The translations under genes and the position numbers were made by a program. DNA of 64,000 nucleotides from an uncultured Phascolarctobacterium sp. (GTDB lineage: Bacteria > Bacillota > Negativicutes > Acidaminococcales > Acidaminococcaceae), in the NCBI GenBank assembly GCA_949295115.1, contig CASFJU010000002.1, positions 1-64,000 on the forward strand, in the 5' to 3' direction. Positions 43,227-58,791 of this stretch are shown in pieces (the stretch's first letter is position 1; every line of letters starts with the position of its first letter). A model generated the notes under the pieces. That model did no database searches and was not told the origin of the DNA. It worked only from the letters and a program-made list of their open reading frames with translations.

Positions 43227-46200
43227 TTAGAATGTCCAGCGCATACCGGCGTTCCATGTCCATTCTTTTTCAAAATCGCCGCCTGCGGTTTTGGCAAGGT
43301 CAAAGTATAAATGGTTGTTTTTGCCGGTTTTTAATGCAGCGCCAATGCCATACTCAAACCATGTATCGTTAAAACTTGCGCTTTCGGCGCGATGGTTGCC
43401 TGCGCTGTCATACATATCAATATCATAATCGCCTGCAAATTCATGCAGCAGGTTGGCTTTGGCATAAATTACGCCGCTGTCACCGATTTGTTTACCAATG
43501 TTGAAGCCTACTCGCCCAAGCACGCTGGCAATGCCGCTCTGGTCTACGCTGATTCCGTTGCTGGTTTCGTATTCGTCACCGCCAAAATAACCCAAAGTTA
43601 ACTGTGCCTGCGGTTCAACATACCAGCCATGTTTCAATTCGTTTTTGCGTCCGTATTCCGCGCTTACGCTGATGCCGGTGTTTTTATATTCACCGCTGAT
43701 TTTGTTGTTGTTGGTATCGTAAACATTAAAGTCGTTATCCATATTGGCATATTTAAATAGCAAATCAAGGTAATGCCCGCTGTTATAAATATCGGTATTA
43801 TAAAATGCTATTGCCTTGCTGTGGTTTTCGCCATTACCGCTTTCATAACCGCTGCTGCCGTCGGTGTAGCTTAATGCCGCGCCGGTGTAACGGGTCATAT
43901 CGTCCTTTTGTTTGGTAATCTGGTCGTAGCCAAGTTCATAAGTAGTGTACTTATTTTCAAAGCTCATACTGTCGTCACGGTTAATTTTGCTGCCGTGTAC
44001 GCGGAACCATGCGCCTTCTTCATCAGCGCCGTTGTTGCGCAGCTCGCCCATACGGCGCATAAGCTGGTCGTTTTCAGCACGCCATGTATGGTAGTTCAAA
44101 GCGTTTGCGCCAAGGATGGTATCGACGGAAGTGGTGCCTTTTTCTTCATCTTTGGTAACTGCGGATAAAATCCAGTCGGCAGTATAACCATCGGTTACAT
44201 TTTCTGTTTCTTTAGTTAATTCATAGCTTTCCCAGAACAGGGCGTTTTCTTTATCATTGGCCACAAAACTGCCGATTTCATTTTCAACACTTGCCAGAAC
44301 AGTACCAACCGCGCCGCTGGTATCGCCATCTTTAATATTTAAATCAATATAGTGCGTACCGCTGTGGTTAGTAATGTGCAAAACATCGCTGTTATTTGTA
44401 TTTGTGCTGGCGTCAATATCCATTTTAAAAGTACCGCTGCCGGTTAAATCCTCACGTACCGTCAAAATACTATAGGCTCCTTCATCGGCAGTCATATCAA
44501 CAACAGCGCCATTACTTAAATTAAGGTCAGTTACATGTGACCTGTCTGTAACCAGCCATTTTGAACCATTATCAAAGTTTAAATTAATACTGTTGCCGTC
44601 ACCAGACTCCTTACCAAATTCAGTTGCGCCTTTAAAATATGAATTTGCTGTATTAAAAGCAACGCTTACATTACCTTTGTTTCCATAAGCACCGACTTCT
44701 CCGGCTTTGATATTACCGTTAAGCTGCACATCTTTATTGCTTTTATTTACAATAACATCAGCGCTGTTTGCAATAATGGAATATACATTTTTACTGTTTA
44801 AATTTGCTTTTAAACCGCCGTTGAAGGTAATACCGGATTTATGCATTTCAGTTGAATTAGCATAAACCGCAGCACTATTTTCTGCACCTTCAACATCACT
44901 TACTACATCACCATAGAAAACTGTTTGTGATGTATTGCTGCCTGAAACACCGTAAGCTGCATTAACTGCCGCCGTTGCATCAAGTTTAACATCGCCGTAA
45001 ACATTTAAAGTACCATTATTGTTATCAAGAGCGGAAGCAGTTTTTGTACCTGTGCCGGTAACGGTTAAATCCAAACCGTTAGTAACGGTCATAGTTGCGT
45101 CACTGTTTGCAAAATACAAACCACTAGTATCAGTTTTACCTGTTACATTTGCTTTTAAGCTGTCCAGCGTTACTTCATATTTGCCGTTTGCCGATATATT
45201 TAATCCTTTAGCAGATTTTTTGTCAGACGTTACAGTAAGGTCAAGTTTTCCCAACTCAACCTTAGAACCATCATTAAACGTACCTTTAACATCTATACCG
45301 GCGCTTTCATTTTTAGCAGTTACAGTTAAATTACTATCCCCAATTTTTAATCCGTCCATATTTTTATCAGTGGTATTTTCATGGACGTTAACGCCATAAG
45401 CATCGCTGTTTGTTGAAGTTACCTTACCGCTTAATCCGTCAATCACAAGTTTTCCATCAGCATTTGTCTTTACGCCATAAGCAAGCCAACCGGCATTTAC
45501 ATCAAGTTCAATATTTCCAATTTTATTTTCGCTATTATCAGCAAAATCACCATCAATATAAATAGCGTTAACATCGCCGGCACCTGTTACAGTCAATTTA
45601 CCATTACCAATCTCAAAATTTTCGGCATTATCATTACCATTACCGTCCAAACATAATCCGTAAGCATAATTGTATTCAGATTTAGTATTTACTTTAATAT
45701 CAAAACCATCGGCAGCTTTAAAAATAAATTTATCTTTTAATCCGGCATCAACACCATACGCAATTCCATCACCGGCTTTTATATCCATAGTAATTTTACC
45801 GCTAAAATCTATTGAAGCCACAGGATCACTGCTAGCATTTGGGCTATTATATCTGCTGTAAATACCTGTTGCAGCGCCTGTTCCGCTAGTAGTATCCACA
45901 TTAATTTCTAATTCTCCACCTTTCACATTACCCTCTAAAACGGCAAGACCATAACCTATATCATTTGTCGTCACTGTTATAACTGATTTTCCGCTACCCA
46001 TAGTAAAAGTCGGCATTCCAGGCCCACTGTGGTCAAGCCATACACCGGCTTTACTATACGCATTATCAACAGCCGTATCATTTATAGTAACGGTTGTAGC
46101 ATTAGTAACATTTATTGCGCCACTGCCATTAAATGAAACACCTTGTGCCCCATAGTTCGTTGTTGGTGTGTTAACATTCATTGTTACGTCCAACGTATCA

Positions 46201-46409
46201 TTAACTGTTAAAGTTGTGCCATTGCCAAGAAGTAAAGCAGTATCTCCACCAGAGGAATTAAGGTCATAATCAATATCTACTTTATCGCGTTCTTCGTCAA
46301 ACGAAATAATATTCCATGCTTCATCTCTTATTTCATCGTTAGCGCCAAACGCCGTTCCCTGTAATAAACTCAGCATTACCAAAGTGGCAAGCATTGTTTT
46401 CTTATTCAT
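43227..46409 (-). CDS. autotransporter adhesin-like protein 1
   Basis: A 1060-residue type V secretion protein. A signal peptide (hydrophobic ~8-22, TAFGAND) is followed by a long Thr/Asn/Asp/Gly-rich passenger (~25-760) with many short degenerate repeats, consistent with a right-handed beta-helix. The last ~280 residues form the outer-membrane beta-barrel, ending in the aromatic C-terminus WNAGMRWTF needed for BAM insertion. It displays the passenger on the surface. The start at 46409 has GGAGTG 6 nt upstream. The promoter contains a G7 run. Confidence 0.92.
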   Translation of the reverse strand: MNKKTMLATLVMLSLLQGTAFGANDEIRDEAWNIISFDEERDKVDIDYDLNSSGGDTALLLGNGTTLTVNDTLDVTMNVNTPTTNYGAQGVSFNGSGAINVTNATTVTINDTAVDNAYSKAGVWLDHSGPGMPTFTMGSGKSVITVTTNDIGYGLAVLEGNVKGGELEINVDTTSGTGAATGIYSRYNSPNASSDPVASIDFSGKITMDIKAGDGIAYGVDAGLKDKFIFKAADGFDIKVNTKSEYNYAYGLCLDGNGNDNAENFEIGNGKLTVTGAGDVNAIYIDGDFADNSENKIGNIELDVNAGWLAYGVKTNADGKLVIDGLSGKVTSTNSDAYGVNVHENTTDKNMDGLKIGDSNLTVTAKNESAGIDVKGTFNDGSKVELGKLDLTVTSDKKSAKGLNISANGKYEVTLDSLKANVTGKTDTSGLYFANSDATMTVTNGLDLTVTGTGTKTASALDNNNGTLNVYGDVKLDATAAVNAAYGVSGSNTSQTVFYGDVVSDVEGAENSAAVYANSTEMHKSGITFNGGLKANLNSKNVYSIIANSADVIVNKSNKDVQLNGNIKAGEVGAYGNKGNVSVAFNTANSYFKGATEFGKESGDGNSINLNFDNGSKWLVTDRSHVTDLNLSNGAVVDMTADEGAYSILTVREDLTGSGTFKMDIDASTNTNNSDVLHITNHSGTHYIDLNIKDGDTSGAVGTVLASVENEIGSFVANDKENALFWESYELTKETENVTDGYTADWILSAVTKDEEKGTTSVDTILGANALNYHTWRAENDQLMRRMGELRNNGADEEGAWFRVHGSKINRDDSMSFENKYTTYELGYDQITKQKDDMTRYTGAALSYTDGSSGYESGNGENHSKAIAFYNTDIYNSGHYLDLLFKYANMDNDFNVYDTNNNKISGEYKNTGISVSAEYGRKNELKHGWYVEPQAQLTLGYFGGDEYETSNGISVDQSGIASVLGRVGFNIGKQIGDSGVIYAKANLLHEFAGDYDIDMYDSAGNHRAESASFNDTWFEYGIGAALKTGKNNHLYFDLAKTAGGDFEKEWTWNAGMRWTF

Positions 46410-46454: not shown

Positions 46455-46482
46455 ATTATATCATACCTTTACCCCCCCGCAA
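46455..46482 (-). promoter_or_regulatory. autotransporter 1 promoter with G7 tract
   Basis: TTGCGG (46477-46482), 16 bp, TATAAT (46455-46460) on the minus strand. A run of seven G (46472-46478) covers the end of the -35 box and the start of the spacer. Gain or loss of a G would change the spacing from 16 to 17 or 15 bp. Confidence 0.7.
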
Positions 46483-46522
46483 GACATTTCAGTTGGCATA
46501 AGTCGTACTTTTTCTGGTCTTG

Positions 46523-56632: not shown

Positions 56633-58726
56633 TTAAAAATGATACGTTGCCAAAATGCTGCCGCTGTAACCGTCACGCTGTCCGCCATAGCCTTTTACCT
56701 TAGCGTCAATGCTCCACGGCGAATTTACCGGCTGGTAGATTACGCCAAGCTCGCCTATTACCGTGCTGCCTTTCAGCGAGGTTTCTTCCAGCTTGTGACC
56801 TTCTGCATAACCGTTGCTGTCGCCGTTAAATTCATATTCCCATGCCGCGCCGTAGTATACGTTAAAGGTTCTGTCCATTCCCTGATTGTAGCGGATACCT
56901 ACACGCAGGCGGTCACTATCGATATCGCCCAGCTCAAATTCGTCACCGTCAATCGTAAAGCTGTCGTCCTTAACAGTGCTGTGATAATATTTAGCATAAG
57001 TATCTACACTTGCACCGTCTTCAAGTTTAAATATCTTGCCCACGCCAAGGTGGAAGCCGTAATAATTGCTTTCGCTTTCATAGCCAAAGGCAACGCCTTT
57101 CTGGTTTTGCAGTCCGTGGTCAAGGTCATTTTTTAATAAGCCTGCGCGCAGGGATGCTTCGCCGTAAACGCCGTTGTCGCCGGTTAAGCGTGCCGCAATG
57201 CCGCCGCCGTTGTAAACTGCGCTGCCGTCGCCATCAAGTCTTACTCCGTTCATTGCTGTGGTTACATCATAATTACCGTAACCGTTTTCAAAGAATGCTG
57301 CCCAGGCAAAGTCGCCGGCTTTGGTTTTGTTATTGCTGCCAACGCCTACCAAACCGCTCCAGCCGTTAATGCTTAAGTCATGGGCAGTACCGCCGTAACG
57401 GCTGTCGTTGCCGTAAACCATAGCAAAGGTTTCAAAACCGTATTTATCTTCAACATTAAGCTGTCCCAACGCTTCGCTGATAAGCTCATCGCCCTGCCAC
57501 AAAAATGCCGCCGCTGCCGCACGCCCTTCGTTAACGACATTGGCCTGCTCGTTAAGGCCAACGGATTTAACGGTGTAATCAATGAATTTATTGTCTACTT
57601 CATCAAAAGACAATTCACCAACAACTTTCTGCGCCACACCTGCGTAAGATACACCGCCGTTGGCAAGTTGAATTTTTTCATCGTTCTTTTCATCAACAAT
57701 AGCAGCACCGTTCTCATTCATCTGTACAAGGCGAATCTTCTCACCGGCTTTAATATCCTGCCCGCCTTCAAAGCTTAAGCCTATGTTGATGTCTTTGCTT
57801 CCAAGGTCTTTGCCATTATGTTCGGTATTATCTGTACCAATAATATTTTTAAAAGAATCATCTTCAGATGTCCCTGTAATTGTTAAAATCGGTTTTGCTA
57901 TACTTTGGTCATTACTTACAAAATCAGAAAGTTTTATATCAAAGAAATTAACATTGTCTGTACTTCTTACCGCTATAACACTGCCGCTCCAGCCCTCCAA
58001 AGTAAGAGTATTATTTTTTTTAGTAAACATGCTTTCAGGAATTACGCCATCATTATCTATAATTACTTGTTCCATTTTATCAGTTATAGATACATAACCG
58101 GTGTAAATTCTAGCACCTTCTAAAGCATTTTCATTAGTATTCTTTTTAACTATTATTGTATTATTATTAGCCCTGCCACTCCAGTCACCTTTATCTTCAT
58201 CTTCCGGCACCATAGAATAGCCGCCATAAATATTACCATTTATATCAGAATCACCGGCAATAATAATCGTATTGCCGATAGCATCTTTATGATGAGCATC
58301 GCCGCCGTAAACATGGGCAATTATGGTACTATTATTTATAACTACAGTATTGTCATTTGCGTTACCATTATAAGAATAGCCGCCCTCTATCCAATTAGCG
58401 GTAATGGTAGAATTATCAATAATAAGTGTATTATTCGAAGTGTCACCGCTGCCACGCCCACCGGCAACGCCAAATCCTTTGCTATCTGTTATATTTTTAA
58501 AGATTACAGTATTGTTACTCCGTTTATCTTTTAATTCAACGTGATGGTCACCATTTTGATTAGCACTTTCAGTATAATTCCATTCATCATTATTCTTTAA
58601 TGCTTCAAACGCCGCGTCTCCATCAATCACCCATTTATCCGCATGTGCATCTCGGGGGGGCATTGTCACTCCATTAAGAACAGCAAATACGCTTAACGCT
58701 ATTAATAATTTAGTTTTCTTAGTCAT
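56633..58726 (-). CDS. autotransporter 2, C7 tract in signal-peptide codons
   Basis: A 697-residue type V secretion protein. Signal peptide: KKTKLLIALSVFAVLNGV then TMPPRDAHA, cut probably before DKW. The passenger (~32-420) has Asn/Ile-rich repeats such as NNTLIIDNSTI and NNTIIVKK, typical of a beta-helix. The barrel (~430-697) ends YSGSILATYHF with a C-terminal Phe. The Met-Pro-Pro-Arg codons contain a C7 run (plus strand G7 at 58654-58660); one base gained or lost would truncate the protein before export. As read here it is in frame. Start 58726 has GGAAGG upstream. Confidence 0.9.
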   Translation of the reverse strand: MTKKTKLLIALSVFAVLNGVTMPPRDAHADKWVIDGDAAFEALKNNDEWNYTESANQNGDHHVELKDKRSNNTVIFKNITDSKGFGVAGGRGSGDTSNNTLIIDNSTITANWIEGGYSYNGNANDNTVVINNSTIIAHVYGGDAHHKDAIGNTIIIAGDSDINGNIYGGYSMVPEDEDKGDWSGRANNNTIIVKKNTNENALEGARIYTGYVSITDKMEQVIIDNDGVIPESMFTKKNNTLTLEGWSGSVIAVRSTDNVNFFDIKLSDFVSNDQSIAKPILTITGTSEDDSFKNIIGTDNTEHNGKDLGSKDINIGLSFEGGQDIKAGEKIRLVQMNENGAAIVDEKNDEKIQLANGGVSYAGVAQKVVGELSFDEVDNKFIDYTVKSVGLNEQANVVNEGRAAAAAFLWQGDELISEALGQLNVEDKYGFETFAMVYGNDSRYGGTAHDLSINGWSGLVGVGSNNKTKAGDFAWAAFFENGYGNYDVTTAMNGVRLDGDGSAVYNGGGIAARLTGDNGVYGEASLRAGLLKNDLDHGLQNQKGVAFGYESESNYYGFHLGVGKIFKLEDGASVDTYAKYYHSTVKDDSFTIDGDEFELGDIDSDRLRVGIRYNQGMDRTFNVYYGAAWEYEFNGDSNGYAEGHKLEETSLKGSTVIGELGVIYQPVNSPWSIDAKVKGYGGQRDGYSGSILATYHF

Positions 58727-58791
58727 TTTGCCTTCCTCCATTCCCCTTCATGCATTTATATATTAATCAAAATTATCCTTGATTTAATAAA

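Follow-up and report, generated by a model that had tools for sequence, protein, structure and literature searches.

Does a run of seven cytosines in the signal-peptide codons of a surface-protein gene act as an ON/OFF switch, or is it an ordinary run of codons? The question arises from a stretch of 64,000 nucleotides (the window), the whole of the DNA analyzed here, which belongs to a draft assembly (28 contigs, 1.7 Mb) from an uncultured Phascolarctobacterium sp. The preliminary description of this window proposed that the run, in the gene of autotransporter 2 (AT2), is a frameshift switch retained for its variability. The features concerned are:

56,633–58,726, minus strand: AT2, 697 aa, stop included; barrel homologous to that of a PF03797 protein
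58,640–58,726, minus strand: predicted signal peptide, MTKKTKLLIALSVFAVLNGVTMPPRDAHA, with cleavage after AHA and before DKW, placed by eye
58,654–58,660, minus strand: C7 run, CCC CCC C of codons 23–25 (Pro-Pro-Arg, signal-peptide c-region); also C7 in the orthologue L037
58,792–58,820, minus strand: TTGAAG-17-TAAAAT, an AT2 promoter-like site of ordinary type that contains no G run

The AT2 Gene and the Position of the C7 Run

The likely start codon of AT2, from which codons 23–25 are numbered, is the ATG at 58,726, with a Shine-Dalgarno sequence (GGAGG) just 5′ of it, and not the ATG at 58,741 of the ORF list. The 300 bp upstream of the gene are 97% identical to those of its orthologue. By inspection, the protein begins with an N-terminal Sec signal peptide (KKTK, a hydrophobic core, and AHA^D). 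While a Pfam search of AT2 gave no direct match, a family profile built from 26 members matched the last 266 residues (812–1077) of the protein L038 (7.5e-53), and the PF03797 autotransporter beta-domain matched L038 in the same place (818–1053; 1.9e-13). Because the two meet in the same region of L038, AT2 is likely an autotransporter, by homology at one remove. Its AlphaFold model comprises a C-terminal helix followed by about 12 long strands, with low confidence in the barrel region, and a Foldseek search with this model returned no significant match. In the passenger (57,950–58,400), residues 117–137 weakly match the NCBIfam Campylobacter LOFI repeat NF038205, below the cut-off (E 7e-5).

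The plus strand reads tctcGGGGGGGcattgtc at 58,650–58,667 and contains a G7 at 58,654–58,660; the C7 run is thus present where it had been described, ahead of the predicted cleavage site. On the minus strand the AT2 reading is ACA ATG CCC CCC CGA GAT GCA CAT GCG GAT, within an N-terminal peptide that can be written MTKKTKLLIALSVFAVLNGVT-M-PPR-D-AHA^DKW. The run had been presented as the Met-Pro-Pro-Arg codons adjoining AHA. It does exist, but one Asp separates the Arg from AHA, and the run takes in seven of the nine bases of the Pro-Pro-Arg codons CCC CCC CGA.

Slippage at the C7 Run Would Truncate AT2 Before Export

The proposal that a one-base change shifts the frame before export agrees with the alleles that we computed. 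Gain or loss of one base ends translation after 30–32 codons and a change of two bases ends it after 29 or 33, such that C5, C6, C8, and C9 all reach a stop within 29–33 codons. If a slippage locus is taken as a homopolymer in a coding or promoter position in which a one-base change alters expression, the C7 run qualifies in silico by these early stops; its length is within the chance range. The run is a candidate frameshift switch. The main alternative to an ordinary run is a contingency locus, in which slipped-strand mispairing would set AT2 translation ON (C7) or OFF (C6, C8), much as in capD; its placement ahead of the export point and the early truncation suit this reading, which we regard as possible rather than probable. 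Were the run to slip at a useful rate, a surface protein of a common gut commensal lineage would have a frameshift switch.

Known systems offer both parallels and differences. Autotransporters of Campylobacter carry G tracts either in the promoter (capC) or in the coding sequence (capD) (PMC7168839), and the existence of both kinds speaks for a contingency locus. Like AT2, capD is an autotransporter gene with a coding G/C run in which a one-base change truncates the product, a likeness of tract placement; its length polymorphism is documented across many Campylobacter isolates, whereas the AT2 run is represented by two sequences with no variant. All G tracts of over seven bases are reported to be variable in C. 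jejuni (PMC3025981), and the PhasomeIt screen of the Neisseria phasome begins at G9 (PMC5953494). A Bordetella screen used a cut-off of >8, yet a C6 in B. pertussis bvgS was noted as phase variable (PMC1891110). The AT2 run is at or below these usual cut-offs in length, a point in favor of an ordinary run. The bvgS C6 resembles it as a short coding C run and is reported to slip; slippage in bvgS has been demonstrated, whereas that of the AT2 run is hypothetical. The tracts of the Bifidobacterium breve sortase-pilus genes are likewise intragenic and set the frame of a surface structure in a gut commensal, but they are G10–G11 with measured slippage (PMC9187656), in contrast to seven bases in AT2. 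In the literature that we searched for phase variation and autotransporters, titles and abstracts contained no report of homopolymer switching in Phascolarctobacterium, Negativicutes, or Veillonella.

Expectation From Base Composition and Codon Usage

The window contains two G7/C7 runs, fewer than the 4.7 found in dinucleotide shuffles. When synonymous codons were shuffled across the 43 window genes, 0.88 coding G7/C7 runs were expected and one was observed (P of at least one = 0.58); therefore, by itself the AT2 run is no more than chance would produce, which weighs against a contingency locus. Given Met-Pro-Pro-Arg, the probability of C7 is 0.024 with the codon usage of the window, where CCC makes up 17% of the Pro family and CGA, the rarest Arg codon, 1.6% of the Arg family; it rises to 0.14 with the Pro codons of paralogous signal peptides.

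The G runs of the whole genome, listed by pattern search, include six coding G7/C7 runs vs. ~25 extrapolated from window codon usage, a figure that assumes 1.45 Mb of coding sequence of window composition. Coding runs of this kind seem to be under negative selection in this genome. Those that survive thus merit some attention and may be special, a consideration that counts against an ordinary run, as does the precedent of the bvgS C6. On the other hand, the lengths of the 111 distinct tracts of at least seven G in six genomes of the genus fall off steeply (94 of seven, 14 of eight, and three of nine bases), unlike those of genomes with long slipping tracts. This favors an ordinary run, and neither genome nor genus has the excess of long tracts that a contingency locus would lead one to look for.

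Elsewhere in the genus, a response-regulator gene (L014, L106, L126, L158, L159) has a coding G7 in genomes G000, G002, G004, and G005; in G003 (L158) the tract is a G8 and the frame is broken. At two other loci, the G run sits between two frames (L104, G8; L163, G7). Judging from their translations, L104 resembles a polytopic membrane protein and L163 a glycosyltransferase, although these names are guesses. The out-of-frame tracts at L158, L104, and L163 are consistent with a contingency locus in AT2, and the L158 case, one of five species, also counts against an ordinary run; the frame breaks may reflect true changes in tract length, gene decay, or errors in the draft assemblies. As a stable control, the G7 of a tRNA-Ser-like gene (L028, L113, L129, L168, L182) does not vary in five genomes.

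One Orthologue and Many Paralogues

Our orthologue search covered six genomes of the genus, 59 of the family, and the GTDB contig collection. The only AT2 orthologue found was L037 (same locus as G005), in an uncultured Phascolarctobacterium assembly; it is 87% identical and retains the neighboring genes of the window. Weak matches in other genera were rejected as orthologues. Across the six genus and 59 family genomes, AT2 with its own passenger occurs in two genomes only, and both of these species carry the C7, identical in length and in frame. A scan of viral contigs for length variants of the run was empty. The run is thus short, in frame in both species, and seen at a single length, which argues against a contingency locus.

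Conservation of the tract despite codon freedom had been suggested as a check. The lone orthologue does keep C7, but AT2 and L037 use the same codon at 74% of the 4-fold sites of the residues that they share, from which the probability that both free wobble bases of the run remain unchanged is ~0.55. At this level of synonymous identity, conservation of the run in L037 is therefore no evidence for or against selection.

The peptide MPPRDAHADKW is identical in AT2 and L037, while the remaining signal peptide varies. This could suggest that residues or codons matter here, with Pro-Pro-Arg breaking the signal-peptide helix ahead of cleavage and the rare codons CCC and CGA slowing the ribosome as the signal emerges. 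The rarity of CGA in the window and the frequency of Pro at this place in paralogues would be in keeping with such a role; however, the comparison involves two sequences, and the gene average suffices to explain the codon identity at the run. We consider this reading unlikely. A further idea was that AT2 translation is controlled through base pairing between the C run and GGGG/GGAGG of the ribosome-binding site, given that the leader contains GAAGGGGAAUGGAGG about 60–80 nt upstream of the run. Shuffled sequences fold as well as the AT2 5′ region does (z = −0.08), and we rejected such pairing as very improbable.

Pro-Pro-Arg had also been called odd for a signal peptide, hence a sign that the run is kept for its own sake. 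This argument does not survive comparison with the paralogues, which often have Pro close to the cleavage site (NAPAAWA, YLPAYA, VMPQAQA, AASPALA) and encode it by CCC, CCA, or CCG; Arg there may be less usual. Comparison of homologues, suggested earlier as a check, gives a divided answer: the mixed codons of the paralogues speak against a switch, whereas L037 keeps the C7.

Seven related genes (L003, L047, L049, L052, L053, L056, and L060) lack G/C runs of at least six across the upstream 130 nt and of at least five across the first 135 coding nt, which favors an ordinary run. Most other members of the AT2 family bear G6–9 tracts in the promoter or leader, and one paralogue (L128, same gene as L055) has an N-terminal coding G7 at 1001–1007 (codon 51), where a change of one base truncates the product. 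Both observations favor a contingency locus, and the second counts against an ordinary run; the chance of at least one coding G7 in the first 200 nt of ~24 paralogues is ~0.015, a post hoc figure. In another paralogue (G000:C25:5963-7062; L005, L006, L036), the final ~46 residues are encoded in a different frame, through a frameshift or an assembly error.

On balance, we lean toward the C7 being an ordinary codon run in the conserved signal-peptide stretch (MPPRDAHADKW) of a species-restricted autotransporter. Such a run may occasionally slip, like any other C7, and the slipped allele would stop translation before export and abolish AT2; we infer that the site is not under selection for mutability. 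If the run is ordinary, which we judge more likely, then seven bases in a surface gene are not by themselves evidence for a switch.

A Recurrent Promoter Module With a G Run

The second G7 of the window belongs to autotransporter 1 (AT1):

43,227–46,409, minus strand: AT1, with a PF03797 barrel (Pfam match)
46,455–46,482, minus strand: AT1 promoter, TTGCGG-16-TATAAT, enclosing the G7
46,472–46,478, minus strand: AT1 G7, non-coding, in the −35/−10 spacer, 62 bases upstream of the AT1 start codon
46,480–46,522, minus strand: inverted repeat CAAGAC...GTCTTG just 5′ of the G7, common to 41 genus tracts

According to the preliminary description, both surface proteins carry a 7-base G:C tract at a switch position. 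The AT1 tract indeed exists, but it is a non-coding promoter spacer in a context of nearly fixed spacing. No kinship of AT1 and AT2 was detectable by BLASTP or with the AT2 family profile. We rejected the treatment of the two tracts as a single phenomenon and keep them apart because that of AT1 is a promoter element of fixed geometry and that of AT2 consists of codons.

The AT1 arrangement recurs widely. Among the 111 genus tracts, 59 lie 8–13 bases before a TATAAT-like hexamer, where ~9 would be expected, and 41 have the CAAGAC...GTCTTG inverted repeat. A search for GTCTTG-N2-G4+...TATAAT, permitting distances of 27 to 36, found 71 copies in 19 of the 59 family genomes vs. one match of the backward control. 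The distance is 31 in 63 of these copies (89%, TATTAT variant counted), and an extended −10 TG is present in 69. Since runs of seven, eight, and nine G all occur at the distance of 31, a fixed promoter element is favored over a freely slipping tract. The capC gene of Campylobacter likewise has a G run in an autotransporter promoter region (PMC7168839); its tracts range from G4 to G10 or more, in contrast to the near-fixed GTCTTG to −10 spacing and the inverted repeat of the AT1 module. Pure differences in G number are nevertheless found between orthologous or near-identical tracts (L017 with G9, L136 with G8, L115 and L154 with G7; L009 with G8 vs. three G7; L175 with G9 vs. three G7; also the G022 and G024 copies), and slippage therefore happens at least over evolutionary time. 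This recurrent module is of more interest than the AT2 C7.

A broader and rather speculative reading is that Acidaminococcaceae have a surface-protein regulon in which short G runs tune or switch expression from the promoter spacer (with CAAGAC...GTCTTG), from a leader with a hairpin that sequesters the Shine-Dalgarno sequence, or from N-terminal codons, AT2 being the coding variant; we hold this to be improbable. The G-run promoter module would let surface-protein expression in the family be predicted.

Ten AT2 paralogues (L015, L032, L112, L117, L118, L127, L148, L149, L175, and L179) have G7–9 in a probable transcribed leader, 65–77 nt before the ATG. When the leaders of L015 and L117 were folded, a strong hairpin, CCUCCCUCG...CGAGGGAGG, covered the Shine-Dalgarno sequence (z −3.0 and −3.7); in these predictions, the G run forms base pairs with a C run farther downstream.

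The module at 46,455–46,522, with copies in its own genome at L009, L012, L022, L024, L025, L027, L030, and L031, can be written as CAAGAC-N~30-GTCTTG, G7–9, and an extended −10 TGnTATAAT, and it is found upstream of genes for autotransporter-like and other surface proteins. In a related form, the module precedes the gene of an SLH-type surface protein (L029) and sugar-transferase-like genes (L105, L171).
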